Under the pieces are notes generated by a model. It had not been told where the DNA came from. It worked only from the letters and a program-made list of their open reading frames with translations, and searched no databases. A program made the translations under genes and the position numbers. A stretch of DNA of 64,000 nucleotides from Kaistella pullorum. GTDB taxonomy: Bacteria > Bacteroidota > Bacteroidia > Flavobacteriales > Weeksellaceae. The DNA is taken from NCBI RefSeq assembly GCF_014837035.1, contig NZ_JACSPS010000001.1, positions 800,374 to 864,373 on the forward strand, in the 5' to 3' direction. Positions within the stretch are counted from its first letter, which is position 1; every line of letters starts with the position of its first letter. Shown here in pieces: positions 20,975 to 64,000 of this stretch.

Positions 20975-21140
20975 TTTGGGCGTGTCCCTCGGTCGGTCTT
21001 TACAGCGCGGCCGCCTGCAGCGGCCGCGCCTCCATTCCCTTCCTCGGGCCGGGCTATCCGCTCTATCTTTTTTGGGAGGCGGCCCGGTGCCGCCTCCCAA
21101 AAAAGGATGCCGCTTCTATCCCTCACGCGGCACCCGATTC
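20975..21140. repeat. GC-rich composite palindromic repeat (copy A), next to tmRNA
   Basis: Two perfect hairpins lie here. One is GCGCGGCCGC with GCGGCCGCGC at 21005-21029. The other has a 16-bp stem at 21067-21103 (TTTTTTGGGAGGCGGC with its complement). The second is flanked by arms, GGGCTATCCGCTCTATC on the left and GGATGCCGCTTCTATCCC on the right. Matching arms with unrelated hairpin cores recur at 47.4, 48.9 and 60.2 kb. No coding potential was accepted here. The remaining 21141-21267 holds only the AT-rich leader of the next gene. Confidence 0.75.
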
Positions 21141-48862: not shown

Positions 48863-48873
48863 GGAGCTGTTTC

Positions 48874-48942
48874 CGGCTCTCCACTGTATCCCCGTTCGGC
48901 GCTGGCGCGCCGCCCGGGGGATGCCGCTGCGATCCGGGCTAA
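48874..48942. repeat. Dispersed palindromic repeat (copy D), upstream of rnpB
   Basis: Arms CGGCTCTCCACTGTATCCCC on the left and GGGGGATGCCGCTGCGATCC on the right, around a GC-rich core with CGGCGC/GCGCCG-type pairing. The right arm is almost the same as that of the tmRNA-side copy (GGATGCCGCT, then ATCC) and ends in GGGCTAA as in the 60.2-kb copy. Confidence 0.65.
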
Positions 48943-48982
48943 GAGATCACGAAGCCGCCAGATACTTTTTTTGCAAAAACAC

Positions 48983-60158: not shown

Positions 60159-60164
60159 ATTTGC

Positions 60165-60310
60165 GTTCCCGCTTTCCGTTGCAATCTTTTTTGCGGCGGC
60201 TTTGCCGCCGCAAAAAAGGATTTCCACTTCAATCGGGGCTAGGATGTCGGGTATTTGCATTTCCCACCGCTGGGTTGTACAAATAGGCTTTTCGCCGCTC
60301 GCTTCGCTCG
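60165..60310. repeat. Dispersed palindromic repeat (copy B) with extra hairpin segment
   Basis: Core hairpin TTTTTTGCGGCGGC with GCCGCCGCAAAAAA at 60189-60219, flanked by arms CCCGCTTTCCGTTGCAATC (left) and GGATTTCCACTTCAATCGGG (right, ending GGGGCTA). A further stretch to about 60310 contains a second GC-rich palindrome (GCGAGCG-type pairing in CGCTCGCTTCGCTCGCG). The arms match those of the copies at 21.1, 47.4 and 48.9 kb, while hairpin cores differ. Confidence 0.7.
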
Positions 60311-61377: not shown

Positions 61378-62235
61378 ATGAAGACATACGCAGGAATACC
61401 CGAAGAAAACGCCACCCTGGAAAACTCAAAAGTGATGCTCGTGACGGTTCCTTACGACGGAACTTCAACTTGGGGAAAAGGTGCCGATAAAGGCCCGGAA
61501 CTTTTCTTGGACGCTTCTGAAAATATGGAGCTTTTCGATATTGAAACCCGCACCGAACCTTATCTGGAAGGCGTTTATCTGGCTGGGGAAATTTCGGAAG
61601 ATTCTACTCCTGAAGCGATGACCGAGGCGGTTTACCAAAAGACAAAAGAACTGCTGAATCATGATGATAAACTTTTCACGCTGTTCGGCGGTGAACATTC
61701 GGTTTCAATTGGTTCGATCCGCGCGGTGGGTGAAAAGTATGAAAACCTCACGGTACTTCAGCTTGATGCGCATACAGATTTGAGACCTGAGTTCCACGGT
61801 ACCACGTCAAACCACGCGTGTGCGGTGTATGAGGCCAGCAAAAAACACAATCTGGTTCAGGTTGGTATCCGTTCGATGGACGCGGAAGAAATGGAGCACG
61901 TGAATGAAGAGCAGTGCTTCTGGGCTCACGAAATTGCGGTAAACCCGAACTGGATCGACGATGTGCTGGCAAAAGTTTCCGGGAATGTCTATATCACCAT
62001 CGATCTAGATGCGTTCGATCCGTCACTCGCGCCTTCAACCGGAACACCGGAGCCGGGCGGTCTAGAGTGGTACCCAACTTTAGAATTATTGAAAAAAGTA
62101 TTCGAAAAGTGCAATGTTGTTGCTTTTGATATTGTAGAATTAATGGATTCGCCGATGCCGAAACCAAGCGCTTTCCTAGCAGCGAAACTTTATTATAAGA
62201 TGCTGGCGTATTATCATTTGGGAAGAGCAAAGTAA
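61378..62235 (+). CDS. speB: Agmatinase-type ureohydrolase
   Basis: Hydrolyses agmatine to putrescine and urea. 285 residues. Manganese-ligand motifs are complete: FGGEHSVSIGSI near 100-111, LQLDAHTDLRPEF near 125-137, and VYITIDLDAFDPSLAPSTGTPEPGG near 205-230. The match is to the SpeB/agmatinase side of the superfamily; other guanidino substrates cannot be excluded. The arginine decarboxylase gene just upstream makes agmatine the natural substrate. A perfect terminator follows. Confidence 0.92.
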   Translation: MKTYAGIPEENATLENSKVMLVTVPYDGTSTWGKGADKGPELFLDASENMELFDIETRTEPYLEGVYLAGEISEDSTPEAMTEAVYQKTKELLNHDDKLFTLFGGEHSVSIGSIRAVGEKYENLTVLQLDAHTDLRPEFHGTTSNHACAVYEASKKHNLVQVGIRSMDAEEMEHVNEEQCFWAHEIAVNPNWIDDVLAKVSGNVYITIDLDAFDPSLAPSTGTPEPGGLEWYPTLELLKKVFEKCNVVAFDIVELMDSPMPKPSAFLAAKLYYKMLAYYHLGRAK

Positions 62236-62280
62236 AAACAGCCAGGTAAAAAGAGCCAGGAATCTAGAATCAAGAAAAAG

Positions 62281-62312
62281 ATGCTTTCCATAATTTTTGG
62301 AAAGCATTTTTT
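62281..62312 (+). terminator. Terminator of the agmatinase gene
   Basis: Perfect 9-bp stem ATGCTTTCC with GGAAAGCAT, 9-base loop and six T. Confidence 0.93.
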
Positions 62313-62350: not shown

Positions 62351-62474
62351 CACCGGAAAGTCTCAAACACACGTGCGACAAGCTTTCCGGTGTTCCGGAA
62401 AGTCCCAAACACATGTTCAACAAACTTTCCGGAAGACCCGAAAAGTCCAAACACTCGTGCGACAAACTTTCGGG
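62351..62474. repeat. Three tandem hairpin repeats with covarying stems
   Basis: Units at 62351-62392, 62393-62434 and 62437-62474 repeat with a 42-43 base period. Each is a palindrome with a 20-22 base loop. Stem 1 CACCGGAAAG with CTTTCCGGTG; stem 2 TTCCGGAAAGT with ACTTTCCGGAA; stem 3 CCCGAAAAGT with ACTTTCGGG (one bulged A). Outer stem bases change in step on both sides, while the loops keep CAAACAC, then a GTGCGACAA-like part. They lie between the agmatinase terminator and the convergent hydrolase gene; nothing else is seen in this gap. Confidence 0.85.
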
Positions 62475-62508: not shown

Positions 62509-64000
62509 TTATTTCAAAACATCAACTTCCAAAGAACTGTCGCCAAAAACGTTTATAAAGGCTTTTGTGTAATCATCTTTAGTAGCGAAGTTCGGATTGT
62601 CCAAAAATTTCTGAGGATTTACAGAAAACAGCGGAAACCACGTGCTTGAAATCTGAACCTGGATTCTGTGACCTTTTTTGAAGGTATGCACCACGTCCTG
62701 CAACCTGAAATTCACGGCCATTTTTTGATTCGGCACCAGGGCTTCCGGCTTTTCGCGTGAGTTCCGGAATCTTGCAGGCATTATTTCGCTGCGAACCATC
62801 TGGTGGTAATTTCCGTAAACCACGCCGTCTTTCTTTTCTGTGGGTTTGAAGTCTCCCGGATAGACATCGATAAGTTTGAGCGCAAAATCTGCATCGGTAG
62901 AAGTAGAGGAAATATTGAGTTTGGCTAAAATTTCGCCTGCAAAAGTGAGGTCTTCCGTGAGTACATCGGTTGTGAATGTGATCACATCCGGCCTTCCCAC
63001 AGCGAAACGCTGGTCTTCGCTCATATAATTTCGCGGTGTGAACCCGTTGAAGTCTTTCAGTTTATCTGAACTTAAAACCGGATTGTTCGGATCGCTGTAA
63101 TACTCCGAGATTGAGTTGGAAGCTGCCGGTTTCAGGGTTCCGTCTGCGAGGAAAAAGTTGACTTTCTGCGCGTTTTTAGGCGGATAAACATCAAATTCTT
63201 TCCATTCTTTCTTTCCGGTATCATACATCATCGCTTCGGGCAAACCGGCCTCAGCTTTGGAATTCCCTTTAAGATAATGACTGAAAAATTTCGTTTCCAG
63301 ATTTTTTTGATAATAGGTCGCAATGCTGTCTCCGAAATAAATTTCATTGTGAAAATGTTTCCCGGTTTCCCGGCTCCACGCGCCGTGCGAGAATGGTCCC
63401 ATCACGATGGTGTTTTTAGCTTTTGGGCTCGTTTTCTCAATGGTTTTATAAATATTTAGAGGTCCGGACAGATCTTCAGCATCAAACCAGCCGCCAACGG
63501 TCATCACCGCGTGCTTCACGTTTTTTAAGTGTGGTAGCAGACTTCTTTTTTGCCAGAATTCATCATAATTCGGATGATTCATAATCTCGGTCATAAAGAA
63601 ATTGTCTTTGTAGTATTTATCATAGCCGTCTTTCAGCGTTCCCATATCACGGTAAAACTTTAAGCCGTCCTCTGAAGTGGATTTAATCATGCTGTCGCTG
63701 TACCACGCCTTATTTTCAGCTTTTGTCTTTTGGACGCCGAAAACCGGAAAGGTCTTGAAGTAACCCAGCATAAACTTGCCATTGTGCAGAAAATCATCAT
63801 TCCAGAAATCTGAAATCGGAGCCTGCGGCGATGAAGCTACAAGCGCCGGATGATCCGCCAATATCCCTGCAGCCGTGTAGAATCCGGGATAAGAAGTGCC
63901 GTATTGGCCCACTTTGCCGTTATTGTTTTTTACATTTTTAAGCAACCATTCAATCGTATCGTAAGTGTCCGTGCTTTCATCAACATCTTTTTTGGTTTTG
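62509..64000 (-). CDS. CocE/NonD family hydrolase (5' part outside window)
   Basis: The frame stays open to the window edge at 64000, so the N-terminus is missing; about 497 residues are visible. The S15/CocE-type alpha/beta hydrolase core includes the upstream STDTYDTIEWLLKNV segment, the nucleophile GTSYPGF, the acidic and histidine parts of the triad (VGGWFDAEDLSGPLN and GPFSHGAW), and a C-terminal jelly-roll domain (FAGEILAKLNISSTSTDADFALKLIDVYPGD, RIQVQISSTWFPLFSVNP). Such enzymes cleave X-Pro dipeptides, acyl esters or glutaryl-antibiotics; Bacteroidota members are usually exported, but the signal peptide is outside the window. Confidence 0.93.
   Translation of the reverse strand, partial: KTKKDVDESTDTYDTIEWLLKNVKNNNGKVGQYGTSYPGFYTAAGILADHPALVASSPQAPISDFWNDDFLHNGKFMLGYFKTFPVFGVQKTKAENKAWYSDSMIKSTSEDGLKFYRDMGTLKDGYDKYYKDNFFMTEIMNHPNYDEFWQKRSLLPHLKNVKHAVMTVGGWFDAEDLSGPLNIYKTIEKTSPKAKNTIVMGPFSHGAWSRETGKHFHNEIYFGDSIATYYQKNLETKFFSHYLKGNSKAEAGLPEAMMYDTGKKEWKEFDVYPPKNAQKVNFFLADGTLKPAASNSISEYYSDPNNPVLSSDKLKDFNGFTPRNYMSEDQRFAVGRPDVITFTTDVLTEDLTFAGEILAKLNISSTSTDADFALKLIDVYPGDFKPTEKKDGVVYGNYHQMVRSEIMPARFRNSREKPEALVPNQKMAVNFRLQDVVHTFKKGHRIQVQISSTWFPLFSVNPQKFLDNPNFATKDDYTKAFINVFGDSSLEVDVLK

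Follow-up and report, generated by a model that had tools for sequence, protein, structure and literature searches.

Phased palindromic arrays in Weeksellaceae and their link to genes of the DUF6261 family

Related repeat systems and the window array

REP/BIME elements are short (20-40 bp) imperfect extragenic palindromes that are tagged with GTAG/CGTC and associated with RAYT (PMC2817692, PMC3733652), and REP are by definition present in more than 100 copies per genome (PMC2817692). The arrays described here, one of which lies in the window (the whole 64-kb stretch of Kaistella pullorum DNA that was analysed), resemble them as clustered short extragenic palindromes of mixed orientation at intercistronic and 3' sites, with 38-nt intergenic units of that size class that hold no consistently open ORF. 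Both are also paired within genomes with a specific gene, DUF6261 for the arrays and the Y1 (HuH) transposase for REP. The differences lie in the strict 42-bp tandem phasing, in the unit ends and outward flanks, whose consensus is (C)SGGAAA without GTAG or CGTC, and in copy number, there being only a few arrays per genome: seven units in two arrays in the window genome, and a maximum of about 20 matches, counted per strand, for any one of 320 genomes. A link to the Y1 transposase was considered and rejected, since its presence does not discriminate array genomes. Y1_Tnp occurs in 245 of the 320 genomes irrespective of arrays, is without a match in G025 and G092, both of them array genomes, and is absent among the 25 families listed as neighbours of orphan arrays, those that lie away from DUF6261. 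The arrays are similar to REP, but their low copy number, the lack of a tag and the lack of a Y1 transposase neighbour set them apart, and no named family fits them.

Multi-operator arrays of palindromic sites serve dimeric DNA-binding regulators. The arrays share with them that palindromes follow one another on the same face of the helix next to a gene, sometimes next to an XRE regulator gene, but each unit is long, at 38 bp, with inner halves that are not symmetric, and many copies are distant from promoters. The features by which operator arrays are recognised, namely palindromes at helical-turn multiples, a conserved core and indel depletion, were all found. As regular tandem palindromic repeats the arrays also recall CRISPR, but they have very few units, lack unique spacers (4 bp separate the units) and have no cas genes among their identified neighbours. 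Flavo-1 RNA (RF01705) is likewise flavobacterial, structured and present in several copies in the window, but unrelated to the array in sequence; its three matches lie at 60161-60244, 21043-21136 and 48866-48944, all on the minus strand, with the tmRNA and RNase P RNA genes close to two of them.

The array itself (62353-62474) is the strongest tandem repeat of the window, with a TRF score of 157 against at most 51 elsewhere. Direct reading of the sequence resolves three 38-nt imperfect palindromes, each unit being a 38-nt hairpin with a 4-nt spacer at a start-to-start step of exactly 42 nt, so that the three tandem palindromic units reported in the initial annotation are real. These unstranded features at 62353..62390, 62395..62432 and 62437..62474 match the covariance model of the family with 54.6 bits (E 1.4e-14), 48.3 bits and 52 bits, respectively. 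The outer stem of unit 1, CACCGGAAAG/CTTTCCGGTG, reaches from 62351 to 62392, that of unit 2, TTCCGGAAAGT/ACTTTCCGGAA, extends about 2 nt into the spacers, and that of unit 3 is CCCGAAA/TTTCGGG. The stems differ from unit to unit and remain paired inside each unit, in agreement with the earlier reading. CAAACAC occurs in the loops of all three units; units 1 and 3 have an exact GTGCGACAA, for which unit 2 has the degenerate GTTCAACAA. Folded as RNA, the plus strand forms three hairpins (z=-3.4, with 1 of 200 shuffles equally good) and the minus strand a nested fold that is better than shuffles (z=-4.6, 0 of 200 equal).

Two convergent genes flank the array: an agmatinase-like gene (speB, 61378..62235, plus strand) and a gene for an S15-type X-Pro dipeptidyl-peptidase-like hydrolase (62509..63999, minus strand), which runs off the window and whose orthologous neighbour at locus L061 matches PF02129 and PF08530. 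A bidirectional intrinsic-terminator-like hairpin, an unstranded inverted repeat at 62276..62312, stands 3' of the agmatinase gene, separate from the array, and is kept in relatives that lack the array. Agmatinase orthologues were found in 35 of the 36 genus genomes. The spacer between the two genes holds the array in the window genome and in Kaistella chaponensis (G004), where the flanks are recognisable; five further genomes (G005, G018, G022, G029 and G031) have the same convergent genes with the terminator only. The window copy is an orphan member of a dispersed array family. At the agmatinase locus of another relative (L102, G028), the spacer apparently carries what is left, in degraded form, of the end of the S15 peptidase gene, a sign of gene decay there.

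Distribution, pairing and constraint

A covariance model was built from 28 units, and arrays were called with it at E<=1e-5 in 320 Weeksellaceae genomes, among them Kaistella, Chryseobacterium and Frigoriflavimonas, with a looser search run within the genus. Besides a second array of four units in the window genome (C11:305892-306055), further arrays were found in genus relatives, and the search of related genomes that the initial annotation had proposed returned arrays in 47 of the 320 genomes, 8 of the 47 in Kaistella. An even sample of 296 genomes across the order gave no array outside Weeksellaceae, every match falling inside the family, and the plasmid and phage collections searched gave no array match. 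An Rfam search of the array yielded nothing at gathering score, and the literature consulted on Chryseobacterium, Kaistella, Bacteroidetes and REP elements contained no description of these repeats, which agrees with the first impression that no named element is involved. The phased palindromic arrays apparently constitute a lineage-restricted, undescribed family.

Three or four units were scored in 57 of the 77 arrays, a count from which lone or weak units are often missing. Of 152 unit pairs that adjoin directly, 143 have a step of exactly 42 and the others one of 41 or 43. The family consensus is symmetric (CCSGAAAG-N7-CAC-NN-GTG-N7-CTTTCSGG, 38 bp), GAAA/TTTC at positions 4-7 and 32-35 and C16/G23 being nearly invariant and the inner positions variable. 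Loops vary far more than the GAAA/TTTC stem core across the family, and the loop conservation initially described therefore holds inside the window array but not beyond it. Both unit orientations occur, within arrays and relative to adjacent genes. A coding reading, in which 42 nt would represent 14 codons, was rejected because no frame of the array is consistently open.

Pairing was assessed by swapping arms between adjacent units that differ on both arms at positions 1-3. Among 82 such cases, Watson-Crick pairing is found in 45 with the unit's own arms and in 12 with the arms exchanged; once orthologues are collapsed, the figures are 37 and 3 of 56, so pairing is a real, family-wide property of each single unit. 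A good part of the raw covariation at position 3 is array-level (own 0.79, adjacent units 0.70, random 0.40). Pairing across unit junctions, with 4-nt loops, was rejected, as junction pairs did not outperform the swapped control in discriminating cases. The stems of 67 orthologous unit pairs showed 2 compensatory changes, 12 that pass through G-U and 59 that create or destroy a pair. The proposal that structure is maintained is consequently supported as regards own-arm pairing but not as regards ongoing compensation, in RNA or as a cruciform. G-U and A-C mismatches are equally frequent: 19 vs 17 in gene sense, counted at arrays next to genes, and 73 vs 74 overall. This gives no sign of RNA-strand selection; of the features of a structured RNA, double compensatory changes were limited to the 2 just mentioned and a G-U excess was not seen. 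Arrays do fold better than shuffles, with a mean z of about -5. Quasi-palindrome template switching could yield matched arms without selection. Given the behaviour of the orthologues, stems that seem to covary within a single array do not necessarily imply that an RNA fold is maintained.

Constraint is visible in the core and in the spacing. Between orthologues, arrays are 82.8% and flanks 83.4% identical, whereas indels are fourfold depleted per substitution in arrays relative to flanks, at indel-to-substitution ratios of 0.039 (21/545) and 0.167 (83/498), respectively (p=2e-10, calculated on pairs that are not independent). GAAA/TTTC has diverged by 3.5%, against 14-22% in the remainder of the unit. 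A step of 42 bp corresponds to four turns of B-DNA. Together, the constrained GAAA/TTTC and the 42-bp spacing point to a DNA-level, spacing-dependent role, although the conserved array length could have other causes, 42 nt also being 14 codons.

The DUF6261 neighbourhood and orphan arrays

DUF6261 (PF19775) is present in 45 of the 47 array genomes, not having been found in G034 and G278, against 75 of the 273 others (p=7e-20), and within the genus in 7 of 8 against 1 of 28 (p=7e-6), both p-values being inflated by phylogenetic non-independence. The adjacency of arrays and DUF6261 genes is independent of these co-occurrence values. At least 21 of the 77 arrays are located 27-139 nt upstream of a DUF6261 start codon, and when 17 further genes of the array-linked subfamily were checked, nine had at least two units upstream and three had none. 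Other subfamilies, scanned for arrays on both sides of the gene, are without them at 25 of the 30 top-scoring loci. Where the setting of the arrays is best defined, they stand immediately upstream of genes of one DUF6261 subfamily.

Two forms of this setting can be distinguished. In 11 cases of the Chryseobacterium type, 36-41 nt separate the end of an XRE regulator gene from the array that follows it, and in eight of them DUF6261 stands on the other side of the array. XRE, array and DUF6261 may represent a small operon-like module; the order recurs in Chryseobacterium-type genomes at L079, L088, L094, L159, L171, L172, L176 and L177, and in G120 the array-DUF6261 part is present more than once. 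A search for XRE homologues in Kaistella found none, an empty result obtained without a positive control, and XRE was rejected as a universal partner for want of a match there. At Kaistella-type loci, a Bacteroidetes-type -7 box, TAATTTTG, precedes the array by 84-85 nt in 9 of 11, which probably places the array in a transcribed leader; such a position would suit an RNA role equally well.

Several DUF6261 loci are damaged. The only DUF6261 gene of the window genome (L059, G000:C11:305171-305645, minus strand) is split by a frameshift, with its pieces in different frames, which could be real decay or an assembly error in that genome. The G023 homologue has an in-frame stop and that of G025 is N-terminally truncated. 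In L070 3353-4651, also of G025, the leader and first array unit exist in two copies about 1.26 kb apart, the second fused straight to mid-DUF6261 sequence, which suggests that duplication and deletion have taken place at array units. The protein itself is predicted to be all-helical, at low confidence (mean pLDDT 63), and no DNA-binding domain is recognisable in it. A fold search gave no match (best PDB match E 0.19), and a fold-based function was rejected on the strength of these two values. DUF6261 is reportedly mentioned in a Streptococcus study.

Arrays away from DUF6261, the window copy included, are found near ordinary genes, and no transposase or integrase family is prominent among their most common neighbour families. 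Genes around 54 orphan arrays are convergent in 25 cases, co-directional in 19 and divergent in 10, and in several instances different species have an orphan at the same orthologous site. L062 and L073 keep the DUF6261 leader with the gene gone, and at L072 the region of the start codon and a C-terminal part of the gene remain; these remnants imply that gene loss leaves arrays behind.

Explanations for the arrays

A DNA-level, helically phased protein-binding array is tentatively favoured over an RNA structure, with the window copy as its orphan. Cooperative protein binding to phased palindromes is the simplest account and fits best; binding, cooperativity and transcriptional effect are all inferred. 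A dimeric DNA-binding protein would recognise the GAAA/TTTC arms, the copies on one face of the helix would be bound cooperatively, and the bound array, standing between a promoter-like box (Kaistella) or an XRE gene (Chryseobacterium) and the DUF6261 start codon, would control the transcription that passes into DUF6261. Orphan arrays would have been left after gene loss or copied to other intergenic sites, and would probably be bound by the same protein yet be dispensable. The DUF6261 product is a candidate for the bound protein from linkage alone, and the XRE product a candidate in Chryseobacterium only, because no Kaistella homologue was found.

Alternatively, the arrays may act at the RNA level, forming stem-loops in tandem within the 5' leader of DUF6261, within the XRE-DUF6261 intercistronic region or, for orphans, within 3' UTRs, and controlling mRNA stability, translation or termination. 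Every unit forms a good hairpin whose own pairing is retained family-wide, the folds beat shuffles, the arrays lie between a promoter-like box and a gene or between two co-directional genes, and nearly half of the orphans have convergent flanking genes. An RNA role is nevertheless rather unlikely, as orthologous stems change mostly by pairs made or broken, loop conservation is lacking across the family and no Rfam family matches at gathering score, and the absence of wobble bias in gene sense, together with the mixed orientation of units relative to the gene, argues for DNA over RNA. Comparably doubtful, and judged slightly less probable, is a selfish or passive REP/BIME-like repeat, whose units would propagate and be retained through replication slippage and quasi-palindrome template switching, the latter restoring pairing without selection, and whose DUF6261 link would reflect origin, not function. 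Such a repeat would agree with the units at many unrelated sites, the agmatinase-hydrolase spacers with and without an array, the gain or loss of whole units between orthologous arrays, a substitution rate equal to that of the flanks, and the persistence of arrays in several Kaistella genomes with a broken or truncated DUF6261, but it accounts poorly for the indel depletion and GAAA/TTTC conservation, for the few arrays per genome, for orthologous array places shared by several species and for the lack of a prominent transposase family among orphan neighbours. An ordinary minisatellite, or chance hairpins without conserved pairing, would explain a tandem repeat within an intergenic spacer, and a minisatellite remnant had been named at the outset as the reading to exclude; it is now largely refuted and very improbable. 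Homologous arrays occur in 47 genomes, with own-arm pairing and a constrained length, and orthologous units remain individually recognisable, keeping unit-by-unit identity rather than undergoing the copy-number turnover with concerted evolution of a minisatellite, despite the gain or loss of single units.

The protein-binding reading also leaves room for a more specific and distinctly speculative proposal, that the array-linked DUF6261 subfamily is the trans-acting partner, which binds the arrays and perhaps copies or moves them. If this were true, DUF6261 and the arrays would be a repeat-protein pair like RAYT-REP, with an unrelated all-helical protein. The analysis ties palindromic arrays that are helically phased and restricted to one lineage to a DUF protein family, and so offers a first concrete genetic lead on DUF6261, namely a cis-element a short way ahead of the start codon, together with a testable partner.
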